Assembly: GCF_004361815.1 (NCBI RefSeq)
Contig: NZ_SNWA01000002.1
Location: 868,001 to 932,000, forward strand
DNA length: 64,000 bases
Direction: 5' to 3'
Origin: Paraburkholderia sp. BL10I2N1
GTDB taxonomy: Bacteria > Pseudomonadota > Gammaproteobacteria > Burkholderiales > Burkholderiaceae
Positions within the stretch are counted from its first letter, which is position 1. Each line of letters begins with the position of its first letter. The notes beneath the pieces were generated by a model, which made no database searches, was not told the origin of the DNA, and saw only the letters and a list, made by a program, of their open reading frames with translations. The translations under genes were made by a program, and so were the position numbers. Of this stretch, positions 2,942 through 63,807 are shown piece by piece.

Positions 2942-5680
2942 ATGTGTCCTGTAATCGTCGATGTAGCGGAAGAAAAGCGGTTGAACGACGCACGTGTCGC
3001 GCACGTACCGTGGAAGAAGTGGGGGCCGTACCTCAGCGAGCGGCAATGGGGGACGGTCCGCGAGGACTACAGCGAAGGCGGTGACGCCTGGAACTATTTC
3101 ACCCATGAACATTCCCGCTCGCGGGCCTACAGGTGGGGTGAAGACGGGCTCGGTGGACTGTGCGACGACCAGCAGCAGCTGTGTTTTGCGCTTGCACTAT
3201 GGAACGAGCGCGACGCGATTCTGAAGGAGCGCCTCTTCGGCCTGACCAATAGCGAGGGCAATCATGGCGAGGACGTGAAGGAGTATTACTTCTACGTCGA
3301 CAGCACACCTACGCACTCGTACATGAAGTATCTGTACAAGTATCCGCAGCGGGAATATCCGTACCGGGACCTGGTCGAGACCAACCGGAAACGATCGCGG
3401 GACGAACTCGAATACGAACTGCTCGATACCGGTGTCTTCGATGACGACCGGTATTTCGACGTGTTCGTCGAATACGCGAAGGCGGGCCCGGAAGACATCT
3501 TCGTGCGCATTTCCGTGCATAACCGCGCACGGGAAGGGACACGGCTGCGGGTCCTACCGACGCTCTGGTTTCGCAATACCTGGTCGTGGGGCCACGACGA
3601 CCGCAAGCCATCGCTGTGCGAAGCAGGTCCAGGCGTCATTCGTGCAACGCATCATGAACTGGGTGAGTACTGGCTCTATTGCGAGGGCGCGACGGAACTG
3701 CTCTTCACGGAAAACGAAAGCAACGCACAGCGTCTATGGAATCAATCCAACGCGTCACCGTATGTGAAGGACGCGTTCCACGCGTACGTCATTGCGGGGC
3801 AGCGCGAGGCTGTGAATCCCGCCAGGACGGGAACCAAGGGCGCGGCCCATTATGTGTGCGACGTACCCGGCGGCGGCAGCGCGACCATCCGGTTGCGCCT
3901 GACGGCAGGCAAGTTGGACAATGCCTTCGACGACTTCGAGAACACCTTCAATGACCGCATTGCCGATGCGGACGAGTTCTACGCGCGCGTTGCCCCAAAG
4001 TCACTGACCGAGGACAAGCGCCGGGTGCACCGTCAGGCTTTGGCGGGCATGCTGTGGGGCAAGCAGTACTACTACTTCGATCTCGAGCGGTGGCTGCGCG
4101 AGCACCGCAGTCATCCATTGCTCGAAGCCGCCCGGCACGATGTGCGCAATGCCGACTGGTTCCACATGTTGAATGCCGACGTGATCTCGATGCCGGACAA
4201 GTGGGAGTATCCGTGGTACGCGGCCTGGGACCTGGCCTTTCATACGGTCGCCCTGGCGCTCGTCGATTTCGATTTCGCCAAGGAGCAGTTACTGCTGATG
4301 CTGCGCATCCTGTATGTCCACCCGAGCGGCCAGATCCCAGCCTACGAGTGGAACTTCAGTGACGTAAATCCGCCCGTGCATGCCGCCGCCACGCTCTGGC
4401 TCTACAGGTATGAGAAAGCGCTGGGACGTGCTGACCCGCGCTTTCTTGAACGCTCGTTTCAGGGGTTGATGCTCAATTTCAACTGGTGGGTGAACCGTAA
4501 GGACCCTTCAGGTCGCAACGTTTTCGCCGGCGGCTTTCTGGGGTTGGACAACATCGGTGTATTCGATCGCAGCGCGCAGCTTCCGACGGGCGGATCCCTC
4601 GAGCAGGCAGACGGAACAGCGTGGATGGCGTTTTATTGCCAGAGCATGCTGGAGATGGCGATCATTCTGACTGAGTACGACCCGATGTACGAGGAGATCG
4701 CCTTCAAGTTCGTTCAGCACTTCATGTGGATTGCCTACGCGATGGACCGGCGTGGCGAACATCCAGACGAGATGTGGGACGAGCAGGACGGATTCTTCTA
4801 TGATCTCCTGCGGCTCCCGGACGGCCAGACCATGCGTCTGAAGGTGAGGTCAATGGTGGGGTTGCTGCCGCTGTGCGCATCGACGGTTTTCGAAGCCGAT
4901 TCTGTCTCGCGCTGTCCGAAACTGCTGGAGCTAGTCGCGCAATTTCGAGCGCGTTACCCGGAACTGGTTGCCCATGTGGCCCCGATCGATTCCGGCTTCA
5001 TCGGCCATAGGGAACGCAGGCTCCTGTCGATCCTGAACAGGCGGAAACTCGAACGCGTGCTCGGATACCTGCTTGACGAGAACGAATTCCTTGGGCCGCA
5101 CGGCATTCGTTCGCTCTCTCGCTATCATCTCGATCATCCGTACGTGATCAATGTTGGTGGGCTGGATTACAAGGTGCAGTACCTGCCCGCTGAATCGAAT
5201 ACCGGGATGTTCGGCGGAAACTCCAACTGGCGCGGTCCGGTGTGGATGCCGGTGAATCTGCTGATTGTCAGGGCGCTGATGAATCTCTACGGCTTTTTCG
5301 GTGATGAGTTCAAGGTTCAATGTCCGACGGGGTCCGGGCCGCACATGACGCTGTTTGAGGTGGCACAAGAGATCGTCCACCGGCTGACGGGTACGTTTCT
5401 GCGCGATGCGGATGGGAGGCGCCCCGTGTACGGCGGGACGGGCAGGTTCCAGGACGATCCGCATTGGCGTGACCTGATCCTGTTCTACGAATATTTCCAC
5501 GGCGACAACGGTGCGGGGCTTGGTGCCAGTCACCAGACCGGCTGGACGGGTCTCGTCGCACCTCTGCTGGATCTGTTCGGGCGTATCGACGCTCAAACCG
5601 TTCTGGAAAGCGACCGCTGGCGCGTCATGGCCGGCGTCGTCGGGCAACAAGCGGGCGGAGAACAGATGGACGGGAAGTGA
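2942..5680 (+). CDS. GH63-like (mannosyl-oligosaccharide-glucosidase type) glycoside hydrolase
   Basis: This 912-residue protein resembles the large bacterial relatives of glucosidase I (GH63, (alpha/alpha)6 barrel). A beta-rich N-terminal part covers residues 1-350. The C-terminal barrel carries aromatic and acidic blocks typical of the family ([61 protein letters not shown]). No signal peptide is present, so it should act in the cytoplasm on alpha-glucosidic substrates, perhaps trehalose- or glycogen-related sugars or osmolyte glycosides; the substrate is inference. The ATG is well placed behind GGAGG (taacGGAGGcaaagcATG). The gene stands alone, with no glycan genes beside it. Confidence 0.85.
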
Positions 5681-6073
5681 GGGAGAAAATCCATCCGAAG
5701 CGCGCCCAACCCTGTTTGCCGTGCGCGGCGACGTCCTGCCCCCTTCCGCACAATCGCCGACTATCTCGAAGGGTTGTTAGATGCCTGCCGAGGTCAGCAT
5801 GACCGTGAACACGCTGCGGCGCGTGCCGGCAGGCCTCGAACAAGCCTCAACGTACCCGGCCGGCGCGGTCGTCATGGGGACCCGGCACATCCGTTCAGAG
5901 AGACAACCGTCATAGAGTTTGCAAAGGCTCCTTGAGCCCATTGAGCCTGCGGGCAGTCGACGGAGGGCAAATGCCTTCGAACTGCGAGGAATATGGAAGA
6001 AATGCGCCGCTTGCGACCACAACTAACACACCGGTACGGAGTCTTCAGAGTGTCCAACCCGCAATCCGCGCCG
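5681..6073. other. Intergenic region, no convincing gene
   Basis: A 43-codon frame at 5781-5912 has no family features and is probably chance. An imperfect long-range hairpin pairs GCCTGCCG near 5782 with CGGCAGGC near 5830, but it lacks a T-run. Nothing else is supported. Confidence 0.4.
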
Positions 6074-6897
6074 CTACGGGCCCGCAGCACCATTTAGCCG
6101 GGCACCTGTTGCCTCGACCTGTGTCATAAGCCGGTAAGAGACATAGTATTTGTAGATGTTGCGCACGTAGGTCGGGGTCTGCATGCCGTCGACGACGACG
6201 ATCTGCAAAAGCCCGGCATTGAGCATCTCCAACTCGTCCTCGTCTTCGAGCGCATCAGGTAGCAGCGTGACCTTGACTGGTGGCCGGCCGCTCAGGATGA
6301 GTTGCTTGTCCAGTTCGACGAGACTGTCGTAGTAGCTGGAGGATCGACGCACCTGAACGGTTTTTCCTGCCATGTCGTCCAGCGTTGTGAGCCTGGGCGA
6401 ACGCGGACCAGTCACTACGACCTCACGCACCCCCTTCTGGTCTTGCGGTGCGACAAAGTCCACAAGCTTCAGGCGCTCGTCCGTCACCGTCAGATCGCCT
6501 GCGGCGATATCACCCAGACCGGAGTTCAGTTCCGCGAACAACCGGTCGCGGGTGGTCGGAATCAGGAATACTGTCAAGGGACGCTTGTCCAGCCGGTCGG
6601 CGTAGGTCTTGTTGAGATACCGCTCGAAGTCACGCACCAGTTCCGCGGTCAGACCGCGTTCAACGCCCTCGTCGACGAAGTACAGCGTGCGGCTGTACGG
6701 CACGAGCACCCGGATCGCGTGTCGCCCGAGCATCGCGTCGAAATCCCCCGTCCACGGCTGGTCGCTCAGGCTGAGATGGCGACCGGCACGGACGAGGCCG
6801 GAACTGCGGCGACGCCCGCCGCGCCTGCGTCCTGTTCCGCGAGCGCAAGCATGCACAGAAGCCCCGCGGCGGCCAGGAGCAGACGGACCGGATTCAT
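6074..6897 (-). pseudogene. MltF-like lytic transglycosylase remnant (frameshift plus internal deletion)
   Basis: The start is set by GGAGG 8 bases before an ATG at 6897, which opens a good signal peptide (MNPVRLLLAAAGLLCMLALA). That frame hits TGA at 6769-6767. The mature protein lies in another frame, entering near LSDQPWTGDFDAML. The body is the first lobe and part of the second lobe of a periplasmic binding-protein domain (SBP_bac_3), as in MltF. After VVVD the sequence jumps directly to TPTYVRNIYKYYVSYRLM, which resembles the extreme C-terminal tail of the MltF lysozyme-like (SLT) domain. About 200 residues, including the catalytic glutamate, are therefore missing. Normal family members are about 450-490 residues; this is about 275. 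It is neither secreted intact nor catalytic. The deletion is inferred from family architecture. Confidence 0.72.
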
Positions 6898-7211
6898 GAC
6901 GCAGACCTCCGCACGCAGCACATCGACTACATAGCGCTCGTTTCAAGCATAGTTCATCGCTTGGGGTTCACGTTGCGCTGTCCTGCTTCACCGGGCTGAC
7001 AGATGTCATGTCATAGACATCGATGCATCGAACTCGGCGACAAGTCATGGAAGTTGACGGCCAGTGATGGCCGACGAAGAGCCCGTTGCCTGAACGGACC
7101 CCACTGCGCATGTTAGAAAACACGCGGAAACGATGTGCAGAAGCTTCATAGGGCCGTTTTTGCCACGGCTGCTCAATACCGTGCTATTGCAACGACAACA
7201 AAGGAGACCGA
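6898..7211. other. Divergent intergenic region
   Basis: This lies between the transglycosylase remnant (leftward) and the hydrolase gene (rightward) and should hold promoters for both. I can point only to the two Shine-Dalgarno sites: GGAGG serving 6897, and AAGGAG at 7201-7206 serving 7212. No RNA gene is seen. Confidence 0.5.
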
Positions 7212-8195
7212 GTGAAAATCGTGGCCGTGATAAGCACCCTGTTTGCCCTCCTTGCTGCGCCTGCCGGCGCCGCCGATGTCGGCTTCGAGGAGGTCAAGAT
7301 AGCGAACGGAGCGGAGCCGCCGCTAACGGCCGGGGTGTGGTATCCGACTAACGCGCCGGCGACCTCGCACTCGTTGGGAAATTTCACCCAGACCGTGGCG
7401 CCGGACGCTCCGATTGCTGGCCATGGCCTGCCGCTGGTCGTGATGTCGCACGGCGGCGGCGGGTCGTACGACGGCCACTACGACACGGCTCTCGCCCTGG
7501 CTCACGCGGGCTTCGTGGCGGCGGCGGTCAGTCACGCCGGCGACACTTTCGATGACCAGAGTCAGGTCTTGCAGCTGTGGCGCCGTCCCGCGCAGCTTCA
7601 CCGGCTGGTGGACTACATGCTCGCTGAGTGGCCCTGGCGCGAGCGGCTGGATGCGGCCCGCGTCGGCGCGTTCGGCTTTTCCAACGGCGGCTTCACCGTG
7701 CTCGTGGCCGCAGGCGGGGTCCCAGACCTTTCGGAGATCGCCCCGTATTGCGAGGCACACGCCGATCACGACCTGTGCGTGGCCCTGCAGCACGCCGGCG
7801 TCGATCCTCATTTCGGAGCGGATATTCCTGCCGGTGCGTGGGTCAGCGACCGGCGCATCAACGCCGCGGTCAGCGCCGCGCCGGCGTTCGGCTTCGCCTT
7901 TGGACGCGCGGGGCTAAGCAGTGTGCGCATCCCGATCCAGCTCTGGCGAGCCGCCAACGATCGTCATCAGCCGCATCCCTACTATGAGGAGGCGGTACGC
8001 GCCAACCTACCCCGAACACCCGAATATCACGTGGTCGCCAACGCCGGCCACTATGACTTCCTGCCACCCTGCGATGCGCGTCTTTCCCGCAACGCGCCGG
8101 ACGTCTGCAACAGCCTGCCCGACTTCGACCGCGCGGAATTCCACGAACAATTCAACGCCGCCGTGGTGCATTTTTTCCAGGCAACGCTGCGATAG
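7212..8195 (+). CDS. Secreted alpha/beta hydrolase (dienelactone hydrolase / PAF-acetylhydrolase-like)
   Basis: The 327-residue product opens with a cleavable signal peptide (MKIVAVISTLFALLAAPAGA|AD) and should be periplasmic or secreted. Strand and oxyanion features come first (PLVVMSHGGGGSYDGH). The nucleophile elbow GFSNGG (G-x-S-x-G) is near residue 155, and the likely catalytic His is in VVANAGHYDFLPP close to the C-terminus. The cysteine pairs around PYCEAHADHDLC and PPCDARLSRNAPDVC suggest disulphides. The GTG start is fixed by AAGGAG five bases upstream. Members of this family are esterases or lipases of varied specificity, so the substrate is unknown. Confidence 0.85.
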   Translation: MKIVAVISTLFALLAAPAGAADVGFEEVKIANGAEPPLTAGVWYPTNAPATSHSLGNFTQTVAPDAPIAGHGLPLVVMSHGGGGSYDGHYDTALALAHAGFVAAAVSHAGDTFDDQSQVLQLWRRPAQLHRLVDYMLAEWPWRERLDAARVGAFGFSNGGFTVLVAAGGVPDLSEIAPYCEAHADHDLCVALQHAGVDPHFGADIPAGAWVSDRRINAAVSAAPAFGFAFGRAGLSSVRIPIQLWRAANDRHQPHPYYEEAVRANLPRTPEYHVVANAGHYDFLPPCDARLSRNAPDVCNSLPDFDRAEFHEQFNAAVVHFFQATLR

Positions 8196-8259
8196 GAATC
8201 GGCACGGCACGTATCCGTTACCATGACGTCTGCACGTTCCAATCTGAAAGCAATTCGTC

Positions 8260-8853
8260 TTGCCTACCTACACCCTTCCCTTCGCACTCACCGCGGAACT
8301 CGAAATCCGCAAAAGCCGCTTTATCGCCCATGCGATCCCGGTTGAAAATCGCGACGCGGCGATGGCCGAACTGCGCCGCCTGCGCGACGAACATCCTGCC
8401 GCCACGCACGTCTGCTGGGCGCTCCTCGCCGGCGGGCAGTCCGGCATGTCCGACGATGGCGAGCCGTCCGGCACCGCGGGCCGGCCGATCCTGGAAGTGC
8501 TGAGACATCACGATCTCGACGGCGTGCTGGCGGCCGTCGTCCGCTACTACGGCGGCGTGAAGCTCGGCGCGGGAGGCCTCGTGCGTGCCTACACCGACGC
8601 GATTGCCACGGCGCTGCAGGACGCACCACGCGTCGAACGGATTGCGCAGGCAACGCTGACCGTGGAGATCGCCTACCCGGACGAAGCACGCGTGCGACGC
8701 TGGATCGAGCAGGAGAACCACGCGCTCGCAGAAAGCGCCTACGGCATGGCTGTGCGGCTCACCATCCGCATGCCGGTCACGGCACTCGATGCCGCGCGCG
8801 ATGCGTTGCGCGACATGACGCAAGGGCGCGCCCTGTTCCCCGTTACCGCTTAG
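8260..8853 (+). CDS. yigZ: YigZ/IMPACT-family protein
   Basis: This 197-residue protein has the UPF0029/IMPACT N-terminal fold with its hallmark blocks (EIKKSRF-like EIRKSRFIAHA, ATHVCWA, SDDGEPSGTAGRPIL, VVRYYGGVKLGAGGLVRAY), followed by the DUF1949 ferredoxin-like C-terminal domain. Relatives are thought to bind nucleic acid or translation factors; the bacterial role is not settled. The TTG start gives MPTYTL, which matches the usual start of the family. The Shine-Dalgarno signal is weak. It runs 65 bases downstream of the hydrolase gene on the same strand and faces the permease gene that ends at 8924. Confidence 0.9.
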   Translation: MPTYTLPFALTAELEIRKSRFIAHAIPVENRDAAMAELRRLRDEHPAATHVCWALLAGGQSGMSDDGEPSGTAGRPILEVLRHHDLDGVLAAVVRYYGGVKLGAGGLVRAYTDAIATALQDAPRVERIAQATLTVEIAYPDEARVRRWIEQENHALAESAYGMAVRLTIRMPVTALDAARDALRDMTQGRALFPVTA

Positions 8854-51975: not shown

Positions 51976-54969
51976 TTAGGGTGTGTCATGGGCGGCAATA
52001 CCCGGACTGAGATAACGGGGAAGTGACGAGATGTCTGGCTTGCGCAGCGGTTTGCTGTAGAGGAAGCCTTGGGCAACCTGACAACCATGATCATCAAGAA
52101 ACGCCGCCTGCTCCATCGTCTCGACGCCTTCAGCGACGACCCGCTGCCCAAGGCAGCGTGCGATGGAAAGAATCGCCTTGACGAGCTCGGCATGACGCCG
52201 GTCGGTGGTGACCCGTTGCACGAACGTACGATCGATCTTAAGCGTGTCAATTGGAAAGCGAGCCAGATAGCTGAGCGCGGAGTAGCCGGTGCCGAAATCA
52301 TCGATCGCGATCGATAGCCCCATGTTCCTGAACGCCAAAAGCGCGCTCATGACCGAGTCGTCTTCCTCCAGCAGCAGGCTTTCGGTGATCTCGAACTCCA
52401 GCCATTCGGGGCGGCAACCGGTTTCATCGAGGATCTCCTTTACCATCAGCGCCAGGTCGCGACACTGAAACTGCCTGGCCGACAGATTGATTGCCACCTT
52501 GTGACGCGCTCCGCCGCCTGCGTTCCATTCGGAGGCCGCGCGACAGGCTTCGCGAAGCACCCATCTGCCGAGATCGACGATAAGGCCTGTTTCTTCTGCA
52601 ACCGGCACGAACTGAGCCGGCGAAATGAAACCCGCGCCAGGCCGATTCCACCTCAACAACGCTTCGGAGCCGATCACTTCTGCATCGCGAAACGACACCT
52701 GGGGCTGGTAATGCAGTTCAAGCTCGCCTTGATCGATCGCGCGACGAAGCTCCGACTCGAGCAACAGATGCGCGGTGGCTTCGACTGTCAGATCTTTCGT
52801 GTAAAAGCGAAAACCGCGACGACCTGAGCGCTTCGCGAGGTACATCGCCGAATCCGCATATTTCAGCAGATCTTCGGCATCGATACTGTCGATCGGATAC
52901 AGCGCGATGCCGAGGCTGCACGAAATGAACACTTCTCTTCCGTCCAGCAGGAAACGCTCGTCGAGCCTGTTGATGATCATCGCGGAGATCTGCTCGAGGG
53001 TGCAACGATCGCGAATCTCGGGCAGCAGAACGGCGAACTCGTCGCCACCAAAGCGCGCGACCGTGTCGCCTGGACGCACGCAGGCGAGCAGGCGCCCCGC
53101 TGCTTCACGCAACAGCTCATCACCGACCGCATGGCCCATCGTGTCATTGACGCCCTTGAAACGGTCCAGGTCGATCATCATGACGGCCGTCAAGCGACCG
53201 TGCGCGCTGGTGGAGATTGTCTGTTGCAAGTATTCGTTGAACAGGGCGCGGTTCGGCAGCGCTGTCAGCGCATCGAAATACGCCATGCGATGGATCTTTT
53301 CCCTCGACGCATGGAGCTCCGTGATGTCCCGTCCCACGGCAAGGACCGTTTCCACCGTGCCGTTCGCCCCGAGCTCCGGGGTCAGCCTGATCAGGTGGCA
53401 TAGCTGCCTGCCCTCGGCCGGCCCCCATTTCAACTCGAATTCCCTGTCGCGTGCCTTGGCGAATACTTCCTCGAGCTGTTGCTCGTAGAGGACTGTATTG
53501 GGGCCGCCTGGATATTCGCTCGGCGTCTTGCCGATCAGTGCCTCTGCTCCCCCCTTGGCGAGCGATGCGAAAGTCGGATTGACGTAGATGCGTCGAAAAT
53601 CCCTTCCGTAGCGGGCAACCGTATCGGGCGAGTGTTCGACGAGGGTTCTAAATTCCCGCTCCCGCCGGGCCAGTGTTTCGTCGAAACGGCGCCGCTCAGT
53701 CATGTCCCGCGCCACGCCGAGCACGCCCGTCACCGCACCCTGCGCATCGAATACCGGCAGCCGGCGCGTCTCCAGCAACGTACGCTCGCCGGTCGCCGGA
53801 GAGACCACCCACTCGTCATTGACGCAAATACGCATTGCATCGATTGCCGCCTCTTCGCGTTCGCGAAAGAAGTCGGCCAATCCGGCATCAAAGATGTCGT
53901 AATCGGTTTTCCCGAGAATGTCAGCTTTCGACTTGCCGACAAATCGCTCAACACCGTGATTGCACAGCATGAAGACGCCAGCCGTGCTCTTTAGCCACAC
54001 CATATCGGGAATGGTATGCAGCACGTTCATCAACTGTGCGCGTGCCTCGGATAATTCCAGCGCCTTGTCTTCGAGGCTCTTGTTGAGCTGGAGAATTCTT
54101 TCGTATTGTGTCCGCTGCTCGGCTTCTGCCTGCTTGCGTTCCGTGATGTCCAGAATCGCACCGATCAACCCGGCCTTGCGGCCCTCACCGTCGTGAAAAA
54201 CCGCCTTGCTGAATTCCACGTCGCGCACCTCTTTCAGCGCGTTTCGGGCCTTGAATTCGTATCGCTGGATGCCCCCATTCGCGAAGAGATCCTCGTCCAT
54301 GTCGAAATAGGTTTTCGCCAATTCGTAGGGGCTCGTCTCGAAGACGGTCTTACCGACGAATTGCTGCTTTGATATGCCCAAAAACGCTTCAAAGGCCTTG
54401 TTGAGGTGTAGATACCGCCCTTCCCTGTCCTTCGAGAAAACGGGAATGGGAATGGTATCGAGCAGCGATTCGAGAAAGGACTCCCGCTCGCGGAGTTTTG
54501 CCTCCGCACGCTTGCGCGCGGTGATGTCGAAATAGATCGCGAGCACACCGGGTTCCCCGTCTCGAACCGGATCCGTCACGAACTGTATGAAGTAGTGTTC
54601 GCGCTGTGCCGCACGGATACCGTCGAACGCCAGTTCCAACTCGCGCGCGACGCCGGTGGTAGCGACTTCGCGAATGGCATCGAGGTAACACCGCAGCGTC
54701 CGCGGCGACAGCAACTCGGCTTCTGTAAGCAACACCCGGGAGCTTTCGGATGCGGCGCTCATCGTCGTTGCCGCGGCGCGATTCATGTAGCGCCGTTGAC
54801 CGTGCGCGTCGTAACGGATGACAGGCATATGCAAATCGCTGACCGGTACGCAGTATTCGCTTTCGCTGTCGATTCCAGGGTTTTCCATGCTGTCAAAGAG
54901 ACTGTTTGTCCGCAAAACGCCGTCTACGCTGCAGTTCCCGGAATCGGCAACGTCACCAATGCGCATCAA
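51976..54969 (-). CDS. Multi-PAS GGDEF-EAL protein (c-di-GMP turnover)
   Basis: This 997-residue protein has four PAS domains in series (roughly 45-155, 165-290, 315-435, 445-565; each followed by a D-I-T or D-M-T boundary such as YFDITARKRAE and ARDMTERRR), a GGDEF domain with the intact active-site motif RFGGDEFAVLLPE, and an EAL domain with SEALLRW and the later IDDFGTGYSALSYL, LKIDRTFV and AEGVET blocks. Both catalytic motifs look intact, so it could make and degrade c-di-GMP, with PAS sensing choosing the direction. No membrane segment is seen. It is a single gene, opposite in direction to the VpsR-like activator. Confidence 0.93.
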   Translation of the reverse strand: MMRIGDVADSGNCSVDGVLRTNSLFDSMENPGIDSESEYCVPVSDLHMPVIRYDAHGQRRYMNRAAATTMSAASESSRVLLTEAELLSPRTLRCYLDAIREVATTGVARELELAFDGIRAAQREHYFIQFVTDPVRDGEPGVLAIYFDITARKRAEAKLRERESFLESLLDTIPIPVFSKDREGRYLHLNKAFEAFLGISKQQFVGKTVFETSPYELAKTYFDMDEDLFANGGIQRYEFKARNALKEVRDVEFSKAVFHDGEGRKAGLIGAILDITERKQAEAEQRTQYERILQLNKSLEDKALELSEARAQLMNVLHTIPDMVWLKSTAGVFMLCNHGVERFVGKSKADILGKTDYDIFDAGLADFFREREEAAIDAMRICVNDEWVVSPATGERTLLETRRLPVFDAQGAVTGVLGVARDMTERRRFDETLARREREFRTLVEHSPDTVARYGRDFRRIYVNPTFASLAKGGAEALIGKTPSEYPGGPNTVLYEQQLEEVFAKARDREFELKWGPAEGRQLCHLIRLTPELGANGTVETVLAVGRDITELHASREKIHRMAYFDALTALPNRALFNEYLQQTISTSAHGRLTAVMMIDLDRFKGVNDTMGHAVGDELLREAAGRLLACVRPGDTVARFGGDEFAVLLPEIRDRCTLEQISAMIINRLDERFLLDGREVFISCSLGIALYPIDSIDAEDLLKYADSAMYLAKRSGRRGFRFYTKDLTVEATAHLLLESELRRAIDQGELELHYQPQVSFRDAEVIGSEALLRWNRPGAGFISPAQFVPVAEETGLIVDLGRWVLREACRAASEWNAGGGARHKVAINLSARQFQCRDLALMVKEILDETGCRPEWLEFEITESLLLEEDDSVMSALLAFRNMGLSIAIDDFGTGYSALSYLARFPIDTLKIDRTFVQRVTTDRRHAELVKAILSIARCLGQRVVAEGVETMEQAAFLDDHGCQVAQGFLYSKPLRKPDISSLPRYLSPGIAAHDTP

Positions 54970-55326: not shown

Positions 55327-55935
55327 ATGGAAATCAAGTGGATTGAGGACTTCATCGCGCTCTCCCAGTATCAGAGTTTCTCGCGCGCCGCTGAATTCCG
55401 GAATGTCACTCAGTCAGGGTTCAGCAGGCGAATCCAGTCACTTGAGCAGTGGGTGGGCGCGGACCTCATCGACCGGAGCAGCTTCCCCCCGACGCTGACG
55501 CCTGCCGGTCAACTGTTTCGGGAAGCCGCGGAAGACATACTTGGAAAGCTGTTTGATACGCGAGCCATCATACGCACCGAGCAACGCATGGCGGGCAAAG
55601 GCCTGCAGATTGCAGCGGGCCACACGATCGCGCTGAGTTTCCTCCCCGCCTGGTTGAAGGCCCTCACCGCGCGTTTCGGCGAGGTGCGCGCGCGAGTGAT
55701 TCCGACCAATGTCCACGATTCGATCCTGATGCTCGTCAACGGCAACTGCGAGCTGATGTTCGCCTATCACCACCCCGAGCTACCGCTCCACCTGGACCCT
55801 ACGAGGTACGAACACCTTACCGTGGGTGTCGACACATTCATGCCGGTCTGCAGGCCAAACCAACGTTCCGCGGCCATGTTTCGCTTGCCGGGAACGGTGG
55901 ACCGGCCATTGCCACTTATTTCGTATACAGAAACC
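55327..55935 (+). pseudogene. LysR-family regulator, 5' part (split by mobile DNA)
   Basis: The first 203 codons are an ordinary LysR protein: helix-turn-helix MEIKWIEDFIALSQYQSFSRAAEFRNVTQSGFSRRIQSLEQWVGADLIDR, then the first lobe and crossover of the effector domain (LQIAAGHTIALSFLPAWL, CELMFAYHHPELPL). The order is that of HypT/YgfI-type LysR proteins. After LISYTET the family sequence stops and mobile-element DNA begins. The sense resumes at 59043 in matching codon phase (TASYFGRCLA). The gene stands directly upstream of the aspartate operon and was probably its regulator. Confidence 0.88.
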
Positions 55936-55950
55936 AGCGGCGGCCTCCGA

Positions 55951-57946
55951 GTAGGTGAGGAGGTCGCCCCCCTCACCCCTCACAGTCCCGGACGAGCCCA
56001 ATTAAGGCATCCGGTTCTTCATCGTGCAGATTCGCTCACGATTTTGCGTAGCTATGGACAATCCGAGGCTGCGGCAGCGGAAATAGTTTGAGTATTCCTG
56101 CAAAGGCAACCCATGGCAGAGAGCGTTTGTTCGACCTTCGCGATAACCACTTTCGCCAGATGCGTGCGACCTGGTACGGCAGGGTCGCCAGGCGCTCATA
56201 GTTCCCGCTGATGCCGAAGTAGGCATAGTGCCCCTTGAGCATCCGACACAGACGCCGGTGCTGATCGCGAAGCGGCCTGGTCCGCATACTACGGCAAACC
56301 TGGTTTATCGTTTTAAGCGTACGCGCGATGCGATCTTTGGCGGTTAATTGCCGCACCATGGCCCGGCCCTTCTCCGAAGTCACCCACACGTGGGTGAATC
56401 CGAGGAAGTTGAAGGTCGTGGCCAACGGCTTCTGGTCATCATCGTGGCCGAATTGCGGTTGGAAGCGGAAATCAATCATCCGGGTTTTGTCCGGATGCAA
56501 TTCCAGGCCGTACTTGCCCAGTCGCTTTTCCAGCACCCGCATGACTCGTTCCGCATCGTCTTTGTGCGCGAGTATCACGACAAAGTCGTCCGCGAAACGA
56601 ACCAGGGTGCTCGGACCGCGAAGGCGCGGTTGCACCTCAGCAGCAAACCATTCGTCCAGAACATAATGCAGAAACACGTTGGCGAGGCAGGGTGAAATCA
56701 CCCCGCCCTGGGGGGTACCGGAATCAGGATACGTTAGCTGGCCATCGTCCAGTACGCCCGCTTTCAGCCACTTGTCGATCAATCTTCTTACCACGCCATC
56801 GGTGACTCGTCTGGCGAGAAGCTCTCTCAATTTGGCCCGATCGATGCTGTCGAAGTATTTCCGAACATCAACGTCGAGCACCCACTGTCCACCACGATAC
56901 ATAACTCCCTTCCACACAGAACGCAACGCCTCGTGAGCACTGCGACCGGGTCTGAAGCCAAAGGAGCAGTCGTGAAAGTCATGTTCATAGATCGGCTCCA
57001 GAAGCATGACGATGGCACGCTGAGCCACCTTGTCTTCGAAGGAAGGAATACCGAGCCCGCGACGACCGCCGTCCGCCTTGGCGATGAAATGCCGACGGAC
57101 CGGCTGCGCGCGGTAGCGGCCTGACTTGAGCCGGTCGACTAGCCCGAGAAGATTCTGCGTAAGATTCACCGCATAGTCCTCTCCAGACTGCCCATCGACG
57201 CCGACTGCACCATCCTTACGCGTACAGTCGTAGGCATACCTCACCCACTCAAAGTCGATGTTGTGATTTAACGAGGTGAACGCCATCTCGGGATTACTTC
57301 TCGCCAGCATGGCTATTCGTTCCTGTTTCGTTGACACGCTTTCAGGTTTCAAGGCACCTCCGTGTTTCCCACGAACGATTCTGCAACGACGACGCCCCCC
57401 TTTCCATCGACCGGGTCCGCCTGAGCGGCGTTCCCCGGCGTCATCAGTACTACGAGGGCGCTAAGACTTCCTGTGTCGAATACGAAGTCGCTTATGGATT
57501 CGCTTCTTCGCTCCAATCCTTCTTCTCCACGTTTTGCTCCCTGCGGCGGAGAGGTCCGCAAGGTATGGCCCGGTTTATATCGCCCCGTGCCTCAGGGCCG
57601 CACAAGATTGGTCGAACACAGGACCTCCCAGGTTCCTGGGGAATCCATCCTCGTACCTTTGCCCTGCTCTCAGACCCCAGTCGGCCTGGCGAGCCTCACC
57701 ATTACGGCTCACACAGTGCAGTCCCCAGTATTTGAAAAGTGAAGACACCAACGGTTACTTCATATCGAGGCTCAATCACACGGCTTAAGTACCCGCTGCC
57801 TACGCTTCAAGTAGTGCGTTACCGCACTCGCATGCAAGGCTTGCTTCCGGCTGGTGGTTAGCCTTTGCCGGGAGGGAGTCGAACCCTCTGGATTCCAATG
57901 ACTGGTTTCCGTCACATGACTTCCTCCAATCCCAGGCTTCGCCTGG
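55951..57946 (-). mobile_element. Group II intron (about 2.0 kb), minus orientation
   Basis: The 3' end carries a domain V/VI-like structure at 55951-56017: read leftwards, a GAACCGGATGCC to TCCGGGACTG hairpin, then GGTGAGG/CCTCACC and CCTAC at the boundary. The intron ORF lies inside. Upstream of it a 590-base structured leader (domains I-III) runs to GCGCCAGGCGAAGCCTGGG at about 57946. Full group II introns start GUGYG; here only GCGCC is left, directly against IS30-family DNA. Boundaries are approximate. Confidence 0.75.
56036..57352 (-). CDS. ltrA: Group II intron reverse transcriptase/maturase
   Basis: The 438-residue protein has the RT blocks in order: SFEDKVAQRAIVMLLEPIYE, FGFRPGRSAHEAL, catalytic Asp in LDVDVRKYFDSID, TPQGGVISPCLANVFLHYVLD, the RFADDF catalytic pair, ELHPDKT and FLGFTHV. 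A maturase (GIIM/X) domain follows (MLKGHYAYFGISGNYERL, VARIWRKWLSRRS). There is no HNH endonuclease at the C-terminus, so it would rely on nicked or single-stranded targets. TTG at 57352 follows GGAGG with six bases. It should help splicing and retrohoming of the surrounding intron. Confidence 0.92.
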   Translation of the reverse strand: MKPESVSTKQERIAMLARSNPEMAFTSLNHNIDFEWVRYAYDCTRKDGAVGVDGQSGEDYAVNLTQNLLGLVDRLKSGRYRAQPVRRHFIAKADGGRRGLGIPSFEDKVAQRAIVMLLEPIYEHDFHDCSFGFRPGRSAHEALRSVWKGVMYRGGQWVLDVDVRKYFDSIDRAKLRELLARRVTDGVVRRLIDKWLKAGVLDDGQLTYPDSGTPQGGVISPCLANVFLHYVLDEWFAAEVQPRLRGPSTLVRFADDFVVILAHKDDAERVMRVLEKRLGKYGLELHPDKTRMIDFRFQPQFGHDDDQKPLATTFNFLGFTHVWVTSEKGRAMVRQLTAKDRIARTLKTINQVCRSMRTRPLRDQHRRLCRMLKGHYAYFGISGNYERLATLPYQVARIWRKWLSRRSNKRSLPWVAFAGILKLFPLPQPRIVHSYAKS

Positions 57947-57949
57947 CGC

Positions 57950-59042
57950 TATCAAATCTGAAGTGCAACACCTGTTTCGTATAAGGTGTTGCGATGCACG
58001 AAAGAACTCAGTATCAACAACTTCAGCCTGAAGAGCGCTTGACCATTGCAAGTCTGCATTTGCAGGGTTCGAGTATCCGGGCCATGGCCCGGATACTCGG
58101 GCGCTCGCCAGCCACCGTTAGCCGTGAACTGGCGCGAAACAGCTTGCCTGCTGGCTACGCGTCCGTGTCGGCCGAAGCGCTCAGTGCCGCACGCCGCAGC
58201 GCGGGTCGCGGCCCCACAAAGCTTTGCCTGCAAAGCGTCTGCTGGCGCATCGTTCTCACCCTGCTCGAGTGGAAATGGTCACCCCAGCAGATATCGGGCA
58301 CACTGAAGCGCATGTATCCGACCGACCCGACCCAGCAGGTTTCGCACGAAACCATCTACACGGCCATCTATGCCCAGCCGCGCGGCGAACTGCGCCGTCA
58401 GCTCATTGCCTGCCTGCGCCATGGCCACAGCACGCGTATGCCGCGTACACGGGGCACAGACCGGCGTGGACAGATTCCCGACATGGTCAGCATTCATGTG
58501 CGGCCGCCCGAAATCGAAGACCGGTTGATGCCTGGACACTGGGAAGGCGACTTCATCAAGGGTGCCGGCAACCAGTCTTCAGTAGGCGTTCTGGTCGAAA
58601 GGACCAGCCGCCTGGTGCTGCTCGCAAAGATGGAAGACGCCACCGCCGCTTCAGCACTGGCGGCCTTCTCCGCCAAACTCAATTCGATTGCCGAGCCATT
58701 ACGGCAGAGCTTCACCTACGACCAGGGCAAAGAAATGTCGCGGCATAAAGAACTCACCGCCGCGACCGGCGTGAAGGTGTACTTCTGCGACCCGCACAGT
58801 CCATGGCAACGCGGCACTTGTGAAAACACCAACGGCCTGCTGCGCCAGTATCTGCCCAAAGGCACAGACCTTTCGGTCTACAGTCAGGACGAACTCGACG
58901 CCATTGCAGACAGTCTGAACAGCCGGCCTCGCGCGACTCACGCCTTCCATTCGCCATTCGAGGTCTTCGCCGCGACCCTTGCTTCAGCAAGTCAACCTCA
59001 AGGCTCTAAACATTAAACCCGCTGTTGCGCTTCACTCTTGAA
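57950..59042 (+). mobile_element. IS30-family insertion sequence
   Basis: A single transposase gene is framed by imperfect inverted ends: ATCAAATCTGAAGTGCAACA on the left (about 57950-57969) and, read backwards, TTCAAGAGTGAAGCGCAACA on the right (about 59042-59023). Size (about 1.09 kb) and layout fit IS30. The exact tips cannot be fixed by eye. The left end abuts the group II intron and the right end abuts the LysR 3' part. Confidence 0.8.
57994..59016 (+). CDS. IS30-family transposase
   Basis: The 340-residue protein has an N-terminal helix-turn-helix (LQPEERLTIASLHLQGSSIRAMARILGRSPATVSREL) and a C-terminal DDE domain: first Asp in GHWEGDFIKG, second in TYDQGKEM, and Glu in RGTCENTNGLLRQYLPKGTDL. 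All three catalytic residues and the full length are present, so it is likely active. Confidence 0.95.
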   Translation: MHERTQYQQLQPEERLTIASLHLQGSSIRAMARILGRSPATVSRELARNSLPAGYASVSAEALSAARRSAGRGPTKLCLQSVCWRIVLTLLEWKWSPQQISGTLKRMYPTDPTQQVSHETIYTAIYAQPRGELRRQLIACLRHGHSTRMPRTRGTDRRGQIPDMVSIHVRPPEIEDRLMPGHWEGDFIKGAGNQSSVGVLVERTSRLVLLAKMEDATAASALAAFSAKLNSIAEPLRQSFTYDQGKEMSRHKELTAATGVKVYFCDPHSPWQRGTCENTNGLLRQYLPKGTDLSVYSQDELDAIADSLNSRPRATHAFHSPFEVFAATLASASQPQGSKH

Positions 59043-59354
59043 ACCGCCAGCTATTTCGGCCGCTGTCTTGCGCTACTGTTGGGTCGCGCCGAGGCTACGC
59101 CGGTTTTGCGCCTTCACTACGAGTCCGACATGGCCGAGGTCCTCAAAAAGCTGGTCATGGAAGGCGAAGGGGTCGCATGGCTTCCCAAAAGCTCCATCGC
59201 CGCCGAGCTTGATGCGGGAGAGCTGGTTGCCGCTGGCAGGCCAAACTGGAATCTCGAAGTCGAGCTTCGCGTGTATCGGGATGCCTCGAATCGAAGTGAG
59301 TTTCTGGACACGCTCTGGCGGCACCTTCGGGCCGCTTCGCAGCCCTCCGAATAG
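59043..59354 (+). pseudogene. LysR-family regulator, 3' part
   Basis: The codons TASYFGRCLALLLG, VLRLHYESDMAEVLKKLVMEGEGVAWLPKSS and ELRVYRDASNRSEFLDTLWRHLR give the second lobe and end of the LysR effector domain whose first part ends at 55935. GAAACC occurs at both edges (55930-55935 and 59040-59045), as expected of a duplicated target or a chance match. On its own this piece cannot bind DNA. Confidence 0.87.
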
Positions 59355-59528
59355 GGTTATCCCACGTTATGCGAAATTCGCATGACCATATGCCGGACTA
59401 GCATCGAAGTTTTTTTGACCATCCCTACTATCCGTCCATACGCAGCAACGTCGCCTGGCCAACGGCGTTTTTGCCCTCTCCCCGCGTACGGTGGTCGCGT
59501 CTGACCTTTGTGCGCTTCCCTCGGACGG

Positions 59529-60824
59529 ATGGAAATGAAAAACCGCCTCACGCTCTATATTCTCGTCGGCATGGTGCTCGGCGTGATTGTCGGCTACATA
59601 TGTCATCGGACGGTCGGTGACGCCGCCGAAGCGAAGACCATCGCAGGCTACTTCTCAATCATCACCGATATCTTCCTGCGGCTCGTGAAGATGATCATCG
59701 CGCCGCTCGTCTTCGCCACACTGGTATCCGGCCTTTCCGGAATGGAGGGCTCAAGCGATGTGCGCAGAATCGGGCTCAGGTCAGTTGGATGGTTTGTGTG
59801 CGCATCCCTTTTTTCACTCGCGCTTGGCCTCGTTCTGGCGAATCTTCTGCAGCCCGGCGCGGGGTTGCATATGGTTCAGACGAACGCCGATGTGGCCACC
59901 GGCCTCAACACCGCTGGTCTGAACTTCAAGGACTTCGTGACGCATGCGTTTCCGACCAGCATCATGGATGCGATGGCTCGGAATGACATCCTCCAGATCC
60001 TTGTCTTCTCCGTGCTGTTCGGCGTTGTTCTGAGCGTCATCAAGACGGACCCGCGTGTGGCGCCGCTGATCGCTGGCGTGGACGCTCTCGTTCCTGCAAT
60101 GCTGAAGCTGACCGACTACGTGATGCGACTCGCACCCGTGGGTGTGTTTGGCGCGCTTGCCGCTGCGATTACCGTACACGGCCTCGATGTATTGATGACA
60201 TACGGCAAGCTCATCGGCAGCTTTTATGTCGGTCTCGTACTGCTGTGGACTGCACTCATTCTTGTTGGCTATGCATTTCTCGGTAGACCCATCTGGGCGC
60301 TATTGAAGGCCATCCGGGAACCGGCAATGCTCGCGTTTTCGACTGCCAGCAGTGAGGCGGCTTATCCGCGTCTCACCGAGAAGCTGGAAGAGTTTGGTGT
60401 TGACAAGAAAGTTGTCGGCTTCACCCTGCCGCTCGGATATGCGTTCAATCTCGACGGCTCAATGATGTACCAGGCGTTCGCTGCGATTTTTATCGCACAG
60501 GCATTCGGCATCGACATGCCTCTGAGCGCGCAAATCACCATGCTGCTGGTGCTGATGCTGAGTAGCAAGGGCATGGCGGGCGTCGCAAGAGGCTCGGTGG
60601 TCGTGGTCGCCGCTGTCGCCCCGATGTTCCATCTGCCGCCGTCGGGAGTCGTTCTCATCCTTGCCATCGACCAGATTCTCGACATGGGCAGAACAGCGAC
60701 AAACGTGATTGGCAACAGCATCGCCACGGCGGTTATCGCAAAGTGGGAGGCAAAGCGGGTCCCCACGCGACAGGAAGCGAACGTTGAAACAGTGTTCGGC
60801 CAACTTCAAGGCGAGACGAAATGA
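59529..60824 (+). CDS. Dicarboxylate/amino-acid:cation symporter (DAACS)
   Basis: The 431-residue carrier belongs to the glutamate/dicarboxylate transporter family (GltP/DctA). Visible blocks are LRLVKMIIAPLVFATLVSGLSGM, the hairpin-1 serines AFSTASSEAAYPRL, GYAFNLDGSMMYQAFAAIFIAQAFG (the N-x-D-G ion site) and the C-terminal ILDMGRTATNVIGNSIATAVIAKWE. It should import aspartate, glutamate or C4-dicarboxylates. The start is ATG 59529 or 59535 (MKNRL). Its TGA overlaps the racemase ATG (ATGA, 60821-60824), so the two are coupled. Confidence 0.9.
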   Translation: MEMKNRLTLYILVGMVLGVIVGYICHRTVGDAAEAKTIAGYFSIITDIFLRLVKMIIAPLVFATLVSGLSGMEGSSDVRRIGLRSVGWFVCASLFSLALGLVLANLLQPGAGLHMVQTNADVATGLNTAGLNFKDFVTHAFPTSIMDAMARNDILQILVFSVLFGVVLSVIKTDPRVAPLIAGVDALVPAMLKLTDYVMRLAPVGVFGALAAAITVHGLDVLMTYGKLIGSFYVGLVLLWTALILVGYAFLGRPIWALLKAIREPAMLAFSTASSEAAYPRLTEKLEEFGVDKKVVGFTLPLGYAFNLDGSMMYQAFAAIFIAQAFGIDMPLSAQITMLLVLMLSSKGMAGVARGSVVVVAAVAPMFHLPPSGVVLILAIDQILDMGRTATNVIGNSIATAVIAKWEAKRVPTRQEANVETVFGQLQGETK

Positions 60825-62302
60825 CGGCCGGAAACTTCAAGAGCGAGCGCAAGTTCGGTGTGGTCGGTGGTCTCGGGCCGTTGGCTAGCGCGGACGTCTT
60901 TTTCAAGCTCGTGATGTCGACTCCTGCAACCAGCGATGCAGAACACTTCGATGTGGTCTTCGAGCAGCATCCCTTCCGGAGTTCAGGCACGGGCAGCGAA
61001 GCGACGACGCAAAGAAAACTCCATATTTTCGACATGATTAACGGCTTTGAGAAGCGAGGCGTGACGACTGTTGTGCTGCCTTGTTTCCTCAGCCATACCT
61101 TCATTGACGAGTTGAAAGCCAACTCGCCGTTGCAGATTGTTGACATGGTCGAGGCCGTTCGCAGCCACGTTCGAAGGAAGTTCCCAGCAGTTCGTCGCGT
61201 GGGCGTGCTGGCCTCGGACTACACCCGAGGCAGGAGGCTATTCGAAAAATATTTCTCGGCATCCGAATTCGAGGTTGTTCATCCACGACTGCGCGACAAC
61301 GTCGACCTCGTCACGGAAGCCGTTTATGGACCAGACGGCGTAAAGAGCGGAAACCTTCGTGGTCGTCCAGTCGAGCTTCTGCGCGAAGCGTGCGAGGACC
61401 TTATCGCACAGGGCGTAAATATCATCGTGCTAGGCATGACAGAGATTGCACTCGTCGCGGATGAAATCGGCCCACTGCGCGTCCCGATGGTTGATTCGAA
61501 TCTCGCGTATGCGCAATACGTCGTTTCGGGGCAGTACGGTTCGGCCGAAACAGTCTTCAAGGTCGGGGTAGTCGGCGGCGTTGGCCCCTTGGCTACCGTA
61601 GATTTCATTCAGAAGATAGTGCGCAGCACGCCCGCAAAAAGGGATCAGGACCATATCAAGCTCCTGGTCGAGCAAAATCCGCAGATTCCCGACCGGACAG
61701 AAAGCCTGATTGGCGATGGCCCCGACCCTACCGTCTCTCTTTACGCGACATGCAAAAGGCTTGAAGCGGGTGATGCGGACATCATCGCCATCCCGTGCAA
61801 CACAGCTCATGCCTTCGTCGAACGGATTCAGCCCTATCTCAACATACCGATTGTGAACATGCTGACGGTCACCGTTCGCTATCTTCGCGAGACGTTTCCC
61901 GCGCTTCGCGCAGTTGGCGTGCTGGCAACCTCCGGAACGGTCGCAAGCCGGGTCTACGAAAAGGCGCTCGAGTTGCAGGGCCTACATCAGGTCGTACCCG
62001 GACCCGCCTTGCAGACACGCGTCATGGATGCCATTTATGGCAAGGAAGGTGTAAAAGCCGGGTTCACGACCGGGCGATGTCAGGACGATATTGCTGCCGC
62101 AGTGGATGGACTTATCGCTCAGGGCGTTGAAGTCATCATCCTTGGATGTACGGAGCTACCGCTACTTCTTCCGCATAAGGAATTCGTGGGCGCGAACGGC
62201 ACCCTCGTCAGTCTGGTCGACCCCACCGATGTACTGGCGAGACAGTGCGTGACGTACGCAACTTCAGCGGCGGAATTGCCGCATCGCAATGCAGCTGGTT
62301 AA
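60821..62302 (+). CDS. Tandem double-domain aspartate/glutamate racemase-family protein
   Basis: The 493-residue protein is two Asp/Glu racemase domains in a row. Domain 1 (about 10-245) begins KFGVVGGLGPLASADVF; domain 2 (about 248-480) begins KVGVVGGVGPLATVDFI. Ordinary racemases are about 230 residues and use two catalytic cysteines. Domain 2 has both (IPCNTAHAF and ILGCTELPL). Domain 1 has only the first (LPCFLSHTF); the second site reads VLGMTEIAL with Met for Cys, so it probably cannot racemise. It may be a dimer fused into one chain with one active half. It starts on the ATGA overlap and is followed by aspA. Confidence 0.9.
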   Translation: MTAGNFKSERKFGVVGGLGPLASADVFFKLVMSTPATSDAEHFDVVFEQHPFRSSGTGSEATTQRKLHIFDMINGFEKRGVTTVVLPCFLSHTFIDELKANSPLQIVDMVEAVRSHVRRKFPAVRRVGVLASDYTRGRRLFEKYFSASEFEVVHPRLRDNVDLVTEAVYGPDGVKSGNLRGRPVELLREACEDLIAQGVNIIVLGMTEIALVADEIGPLRVPMVDSNLAYAQYVVSGQYGSAETVFKVGVVGGVGPLATVDFIQKIVRSTPAKRDQDHIKLLVEQNPQIPDRTESLIGDGPDPTVSLYATCKRLEAGDADIIAIPCNTAHAFVERIQPYLNIPIVNMLTVTVRYLRETFPALRAVGVLATSGTVASRVYEKALELQGLHQVVPGPALQTRVMDAIYGKEGVKAGFTTGRCQDDIAAAVDGLIAQGVEVIILGCTELPLLLPHKEFVGANGTLVSLVDPTDVLARQCVTYATSAAELPHRNAAG

Positions 62303-62388: not shown

Positions 62389-63807
62389 ATGCTCGCGCCC
62401 ACTGAACGTATCGAACACGACCTTCTCGGCGACCTCGCCGTGCCCGCCGCAGCCTGTTACGGCATCCACACGTTGCGTGCGCTCGAGAACTTTCCCATCA
62501 CCGGAATTCCCATCTCGACTTACCCCAACCTCATCAATGCGCTGGCGAGCGTAAAAGAGGCTGCCGCGCTGGCGAACCGTGAACTTGGGTTACTCAGCGA
62601 ACTCAAGACGCAAGCCATCGTTGAAGCATGCAGGCAAGTCCGTTCCGGCGCCGCACACGACCAGTTCGTGGTCGATGTCATTCAGGGCGGCGCGGGAACC
62701 TCGACGAACATGAACGCGAATGAAGTTATCGCCAATCTTGCTCTTGAACATCTTGGACATCAGCGAGGCGAATACGCCGTCCTGCATCCGAATGAGGACG
62801 TCAATCTTGGGCAAAGTACGAACGACGTCTATCCGACGGCGCTGAAAATTGCGACATACGCGGGAATCATGCAACTGGTCGATGCAATGGCCACGTTGCG
62901 CACCTCGTTCGAACGTAAGGCCGAGGAATTCAGGAGCGACCTGAAGATGGGGCGCACGCAACTTCAGGATGCCGTTCCCATGACGCTGGGGCAAGAGTTC
63001 AGCACGTTCGCGGTCATGCTTGGCGAAGACGAGGAGCGACTCAAGGAGGCCGCAAAGTTAATCTGTGAGATTAACCTGGGGGCCACTGCCATTGGTACGG
63101 GCATCAACACGCACCCTGAATACGCGCAGCTCGCTTGCGGTCACCTGAGCGGCGTGACCGGCATTCCTCTGACGACTTCTCCGAACCTGATCGAAGCAAC
63201 GCAGGACGTTGGTTCGTTTGTGCAGTTGTCGGGCGTGCTGAAACGGGTTGCGGTCAAGCTCTCGAAAACCTGCAATGACCTGCGTCTTCTTTCGAGTGGG
63301 CCACGCGCGGGTCTGGGGGAAATCAATCTGCCGCCCGTACAAGCGGGCTCCAGCATCATGCCCGGGAAGGTGAACCCGGTCATCCCCGAAGTCGTCAACC
63401 AGATTGCGTTCGAAGTGATCGGCAACGATGTGACCGTAAGCTTTGCTGCGGAAGCGGGTCAGCTGCAACTCAATGCATTCGAACCCATCATCGCGCACAG
63501 TCTTTTCAAAAGCGTCGCCCACCTGCGCGCCGGATGCCTCACGCTCGCTTCAAAATGCATCGATGGCATCACGGCCAATCGGGACCGGCTACGGTCAATC
63601 GTCGAGAATTCGATCGGCATCGTGACTGCACTCAATCCATACATCGGTTACACGCATGCTACGGAAGTCGCACGCGAGGCGCTCGCGTCTGGCCGAAGTG
63701 TGGCGGAGATCGTGCTCGAGAAGGGTTTATTGAGCCAGATGCAACTCGATGAAATCCTGCAGCCTGTGATGCTGACCAAGCCGAGGAAAGTCGAGCCGGT
63801 CGCGTAA
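62389..63807 (+). CDS. aspA: Aspartate ammonia-lyase
   Basis: The 472-residue enzyme has the fumarase/aspartase blocks: AGTSTNMNANEVIAN, NLGQSTNDVYPTALKIA, GRTQLQDAVPMTLGQEF, TGINTHPEY and the mobile signature loop GSSIMPGKVNPVIPEVVNQ. It turns L-aspartate into fumarate and ammonia. It is third in the operon after an amino-acid carrier and a racemase, which fits growth on aspartate of either chirality. Fumarase C is less likely, since the order and neighbours suit aspartase. Confidence 0.92.
   Translation: MLAPTERIEHDLLGDLAVPAAACYGIHTLRALENFPITGIPISTYPNLINALASVKEAAALANRELGLLSELKTQAIVEACRQVRSGAAHDQFVVDVIQGGAGTSTNMNANEVIANLALEHLGHQRGEYAVLHPNEDVNLGQSTNDVYPTALKIATYAGIMQLVDAMATLRTSFERKAEEFRSDLKMGRTQLQDAVPMTLGQEFSTFAVMLGEDEERLKEAAKLICEINLGATAIGTGINTHPEYAQLACGHLSGVTGIPLTTSPNLIEATQDVGSFVQLSGVLKRVAVKLSKTCNDLRLLSSGPRAGLGEINLPPVQAGSSIMPGKVNPVIPEVVNQIAFEVIGNDVTVSFAAEAGQLQLNAFEPIIAHSLFKSVAHLRAGCLTLASKCIDGITANRDRLRSIVENSIGIVTALNPYIGYTHATEVAREALASGRSVAEIVLEKGLLSQMQLDEILQPVMLTKPRKVEPVA

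Follow-up and report, generated by a model that had tools for sequence, protein, structure and literature searches.

We analyzed a 64,000-nucleotide stretch of the Paraburkholderia sp. BL10I2N1 genome (contig NZ_SNWA01000002.1, positions 868,001 to 932,000; hereafter, the window) in which a lysR regulator gene is interrupted by mobile DNA. Specifically, an IS30-family insertion sequence (IS) lies within lysR, and that IS is in turn interrupted, in its left terminal inverted repeat (TIR), by a group II intron. Very probably, the IS inserted into lysR and the intron then homed into the left TIR by guide pairing; the operon downstream was probably left without its regulator. Each of the three layers, operon regulator, IS, and intron, is readable from sequence.

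Both parts of lysR lie on the plus strand. The first (55327..55938) encodes residues 1–204, comprising the helix-turn-helix (HTH) domain and the first half of the effector domain, and the second (59052..59354) encodes the last 100 residues and the stop codon. The LysR codons that begin at 55327 stop at 55938, and they continue from 59049 with the phase unchanged. The break follows residue 204 of 304, and no unbroken reading frame exists; the open frame of the first part extends to 56091, adding 50 foreign residues. Pfam detects both HTH_1 and LysR_substrate, the latter in two pieces. We compared the two parts with 29 loci (L022–L050) collected around homologs of the carrier encoded downstream. 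Both parts are matched in 13 of the 29, the first at 73–94% identity and the second at 52–89%, and in every one of the 13, the first part stops at one base and the second begins at the next. Weak partial matches (27–30%), to the first part only, occur in L042 and L043. The two parts are therefore one gene broken by mobile DNA. The original prediction, made from the letters of the window, had proposed a LysR gene split in this way with its codon phase kept, and the proposal survived comparison of the joined sequence with intact homologs: 13 orthologous loci match contiguously across the junction. It had begun the second half at TASYFGRC; SYFGRC is indeed LysR, but the extra A is IS sequence. 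Once joined, the protein has YTET-S-YFGRC at the junction, where the codon for S is the duplicated 3-bp target, AGC. No second copy of this lysR was found in the genome among the 150 of 172 candidates scored, the best other match being 46% identical.

The interrupting IS is 1104 bp long. Its left TIR tip, GGCGGCC, occupies 55939..55945, and the remainder runs from 57952 to the right tip, AACCGCC, which ends at 59048 (plus strand). Together, these two pieces are identical at 1104/1104 bases to an intron-free copy in the same genome, L053, located in the C2:2344808 region (C2 is the contig that holds the window, at C2:868001-932000). Comparison with L053 places the 3-bp AGC duplication on both sides of the window copy, at 55936..55938 and 59049..59051; L053 is flanked by CTC on both sides. 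Short target duplications of 2–3 bp are typical of the IS30 family. The TIRs read GGCGGCCTCAAATCTGAAGTGCAACA versus GGCGGTTTCAAGAGTGAAGCGCAACA. The transposase gene (57994..59016, plus) is intact, and its 340-residue product scores 318 bits against NF033563 (cut-off 80) and is identical in the window and L053. GAAACC, previously suggested as the target duplication, proved to be something else at each edge: the left copy (55930–55935) is the LysR codons for E-T, and the right copy (59040–59045) is within the TIR of the IS and is found again, with other DNA next to it, at the right ends of the IS copies L005 and L007. Among IS30-family elements of Caballeronia/Paraburkholderia plasmids, the best matches listed cover ~95% of the IS query at 76–90% identity. 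Near the start of the transposase gene, at 58070–58099, is a perfect 30-bp palindrome (15-bp arms, no spacer), and corresponding inverted matches were seen in other IS copies.

The intron is 2006 bp long (55946..57951, minus) and is antisense to both lysR and the transposase gene. It divides the left TIR into a 7-bp tip and the rest of the repeat. Its ends were set from the empty site in L053 together with guide–exon pairing. Ribozyme domains 1–4 match Rfam RF02005 at 57665–57881 (129 bits; gathering 49). The intron encodes a 438-residue reverse transcriptase (RT)/maturase with a TTG start (56036..57352, minus), which scores 349 bits against TIGR04416 (cut-off 300); RVT_1 is its sole Pfam match, and Pfam and NCBIfam scans found no endonuclease domain. 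The original prediction was right that a group II intron and an IS30-family element are both present but had them stacked, an arrangement ruled out by the comparison with L053, in which the intron lies within the left TIR of the IS. Splicing as a rescue of the regulator was likewise discarded: the intron runs antisense to lysR, so its removal by splicing cannot restore a lysR transcript.

A guide match explains the intron’s choice of the IS end. The guide region in domain 1 (approximately 57730..57765, minus) carries the exon-binding sites EBS2, TGAAGT, and EBS1, TCAAAT, at intron positions ~189 and ~216. Both hexamers are complementary to the left TIR read outward, where the target is ACTTCA-G-ATTTGA (intron-binding site IBS2, spacer, IBS1; 57952..57964, minus). 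The empty site alone permits three parses of the intron, GA being present at both ends. Of the candidate 5′ ends, GATAG, ATAG, and TAGCG, guide pairing favors the last, and in this register U is the first base of the intron. By eye, rather than by computation, a TAGCG start also fits conserved codons in the IS66-type hosts of related introns (L088, L093, and L150) and in the IS630-type host L057.

The pairing holds beyond the window. We tested 16 of 21 intron rows plus the window, 17 in all; L062, L074, L101, L139, and L166 were omitted as repeats of guides and targets already entered. Across 11 distinct guides, the guide hexamer pairs with the last six exon bases at 62/66 positions. By comparison, 20000 shuffles gave a mean of 29.8 and a maximum of 52, with none reaching 62. 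Register matters as well: 12 introns pair at 67/72 positions in register and at 22–32 when the exon is slid by 1–3 bases. The weakest case, L087, pairs at 4/6.

The genome, 9.2 Mb in four contigs, contains four copies of the intron at three sites (the window, L051, and L052), each at an IS30-type end. L051 (C2:1.285-1.290 Mb) holds, within its positions 3023-8437, a copy with 100% identity across 2005 bases and, in tandem behind it, a second copy that is 99.8–99.9% identical over two pieces, split by another insertion. The splitting insertion has open reading frames (ORFs) that look IS3-type, and the IS30 element beyond the tandem introns is interrupted by an element with IS66-type-looking ORFs; both were named by eye. 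At L052 (C4:0.29 Mb), a 99.95% identical copy occupies the right end of a further IS30-type element, whose match is confined to its final ~180 bp (72%). Both sides are used: the left repeat is filled in the window and at L051, the right end at L052. The L052 end reads GCTTCA-C-CTTTGA.

Farther afield, 300 genomes of the order were searched, with 2 candidates scored in each; apart from the home genome, 6 contained matches, all of them short fragments. The intron had no match in a phage collection. In other genomes, the 3′ flank of related introns resembles an IS30-type tip in L061, L089, and L123. These calls are made on short sequence only, because a search of 12 intron loci gave no match to the transposase of the window IS. 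A related intron, 78% identical, is present in genome G132 as two copies of equal score (L057 and L072); they sit in what looks by eye like an IS630-type transposase gene. The near-identical copies at several sites, together with the equal-scoring pair in G132, suggest that these introns are mobile.

How selective is the target? The pattern RCTTCANNTTTGA occurs 12 times in the 9.2-Mb genome, and a reversed control pattern occurs once. Seven of the 12 occurrences are IS30-type ends by sequence and five are not. That the intron reached the IS end by chance, rather than by guided homing, is thus a very improbable alternative. Its appeal is that other intron relatives sit elsewhere, with IS66-type and IS630-type motifs at some junctions (by eye) and unidentified DNA at others. 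Against it, all three sites in the home genome, with their four intron copies, are IS30-type ends, guide and exon pair in register over 11 distinct guides, and the target pattern is both rare and concentrated at such ends.

The seven IS30-type targets also differ by strand. Three are filled (C2:925952, minus; C2:1290437, minus; C4:289603, plus), and four are empty (C2:2272535, minus, which is the end of an IS fragment; C2:2344808, minus; C3:73967, minus; C3:544700, plus). We used GC skew from sampled 20-kb bins as a proxy for replication strand. Along C2, skew is negative in 13/13 bins from 0.18 to 1.88 Mb and positive in 24/27 bins beyond; the negative bins beyond 1.88 Mb, at 2.32, 2.34, and 2.40 Mb, are all above -0.01. 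On C3, skew is +0.012 at 60–80 kb and -0.029 at 540–560 kb, and on C4, it is +0.024 at 280–300 kb. Judged by replicon arm, 3/3 filled sites versus 0/4 empty sites have the target on the G-rich strand, a complete split that chance would yield 1 time in 35 (calculated by hand). The pattern, from a small test, is consistent with the intron entering on the lagging-strand template. A single genome that carries the same target both filled and empty offers a natural test of lagging-strand homing.

The order of events that we propose is as follows. An IS30-family element would have transposed into lysR, duplicating AGC. A mobile group II intron would then have retrohomed into the left TIR, its EBS2 and EBS1 pairing with ACTTCA-G-ATTTGA. 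With no endonuclease domain found in its protein, the intron most likely entered single-stranded DNA of the lagging-strand template at the replication fork, the route published for the introns RmInt1 and RmInt2. The 2-kb intron parts the IS tip from the rest of the repeat and probably immobilizes this IS copy. Alternatively, the intron was in the IS before the insertion, and the two entered lysR together as a 3.1-kb unit. AGC is duplicated on either side of the full IS–intron unit, so sequence alone does not settle which came first, and both elements are nearly unchanged relative to their other copies. We nonetheless judge entry as a unit to be improbable: the left TIR tip is 2 kb from the rest of the repeat, a configuration that a transposase reading the repeat as one site should refuse; the genome holds an identical IS that lacks the intron (L053); and, on C4, at the one other site comparable with an intron-free state, the intron occupies the end of a different IS30-type element.

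Several observations weigh against parts of the proposal that IS insertion was followed by guided homing. L056 (genome G032) and L085 (Paraburkholderia ultramafica) represent one locus, as the first 400 bases of L056 occur in L085, and the related intron there has no IS30 tip downstream. C3:73967 is called an IS30-type end by sequence alone, with no transposase match within its 3 kb. In the pairing test, the hexamers were chosen by eye within the loop, which favors pairing. The strand test comprises seven sites and was devised after the sites were seen, and the bin with the empty site C2:2344808 has a skew of -0.0055, opposite to that of its arm, so this site counts the other way if single bins are used. 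Finally, the Rfam model of domain 5 (RF00029) does not match the window copy of the intron even at E 1; the activity of this copy is therefore not certain.

What does the nest mean for the host? As the original prediction had it, the broken lysR is upstream of carrier, racemase, and aspartase genes, all on the same strand. Specifically, downstream are genes for an SDF-family carrier (DctA/GltP-like; 59532..60824, start codon not settled; PF00375; orthologs in L022–L035), a protein of two Asp/Glu-racemase domains identified by NCBIfam and Pfam scans (60821..62302), and aspartate ammonia-lyase (62389..63807; TIGR00839 above cut-off). The best NCBIfam match of the double racemase is the cysteate racemase CuyB. 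Upstream of lysR, on the minus strand, is a gene for a 997-residue PAS-GGDEF-EAL protein (51976–54969). LysR boxes have the form T-N11-A. Two LysR-type boxes, ATGC-N7-GCAT (59369..59383) and, 21 bp from it, ATG(C/T)-N7-GCAT (59390..59404), occur in 15/15 intergenic regions upstream of the carrier (the window and L022–L035). In L025 (genome G030), the carrier is 87% identical and both boxes are kept; no such lysR was found in the 1.5 kb upstream.

The lysR gene probably controls this aspartate-use operon. With lysR broken, the operon and its two operator boxes persist, probably without their regulator, and changed operon control is likely, loss of control being the likeliest outcome. The host would then likely possess, in this one sequenced genome, an aspartate operon with an operator but without a regulator. 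An unlikely but appreciable alternative is that the operon is still on, driven from the IS by transposase read-through or an outward promoter, or that the truncated LysR is active. The transposase gene does read toward the operon, no terminator-like site was found in 58900–59560, and the truncated LysR retains its HTH domain. On the other side, the LysR effector domain is halved and carries the 50-residue foreign tail, and a consensus scan of the same interval found 0 sigma-70-type promoters (0.2 expected in shuffles), which is weak evidence either way.

The ends of the intron are themselves unusual. The group II consensus is GUGYG...AY, with the first and penultimate nucleotides in contact, as described in PMC4238363. 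The empty site and guide register give the window intron the boundaries UAGCG...GGA, which differ from this consensus. In PMC4424553, the domain 5 triad is given as AGC or CGC. A domain-5-like hairpin following the RT gene (55980–56030, minus) reads GAACC...GGGAC, with AAC replacing the AGC triad. By hand count, ~40 distinct domain-5-like hairpins begin GAACC, in relatives from several phyla, and ~20 begin GAGCC. The GAACC variant may already be covered by curated data, because one GAACC relative, L152, reaches the RF00029 cut-off.

We read both intron ends in 37 of 49 loci scanned, the 3′ ends by motif and some 5′ ends by eye; the other 12 are L100, L102, L107, L114, L118, L127, L129, L147, L152, L154, L157, and L158. 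Of the 37 introns, 25 have U1 with a penultimate G, and 12, from Halomonas and kin, have G1 with a penultimate A. The Halomonas-type introns (among L097–L122) have GUGCG...CGAC ends and the others UNGYG...GG(A/C). In a 41-row RT tree with an arbitrary root, the 11 G1 rows form one branch (100/100) beside the U1 rows, so few independent changes underlie the association. We tentatively suggest, at slightly less than even confidence, that a broad lineage may have changed its first and penultimate nucleotides together (U1/G(-2) for G1/A(-2)), often with an AAC triad, and may still be mobile. If so, this lineage would represent a natural swap of a known contact between intron ends in working ribozymes, and the deviant ends would give specialists a comparative handle on that contact. 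UHB.I2, an integron-associated intron with boundaries UUGCG..GU, likewise has U first and G penultimate; it differs in that its authors assign it to class CL1 and locate it in an integron array (PMC7923331).

The principle of nesting is already known, and the window provides a new example. As described in PMC5894124 and PMC8496243, RmInt2 of Sinorhizobium meliloti lies in the repeats of ISRm17. By description, RmInt2 uses both left and right IS repeats, as does the window intron. The two differ in IS family and host, and RmInt2 is assigned to class D in the same accounts. According to PMC5894124, RmInt2 insertion is biased to the lagging-strand template, and introns of this kind restrict how far their IS can spread. 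RmInt1 of S. meliloti, from ISRm2011-2, shares with the window intron an IS-borne location and an RT/maturase without an endonuclease domain (PMC5894124, PMC4238363), and its 3′ end, CC, is deviant too (PMC4238363). In these same two descriptions, RmInt1 is inside an IS630-family element and not in its repeat, unlike the window intron. The S. meliloti intron protein nearest to that of the window, within a plasmid set, is 41.8% identical and is not established as RmInt1. Literature searches returned no description of intron homing into IS30 repeats in the titles and abstract starts listed. The window intron extends the repeat-homing habit of RmInt2 to IS30-type ends in a betaproteobacterium.

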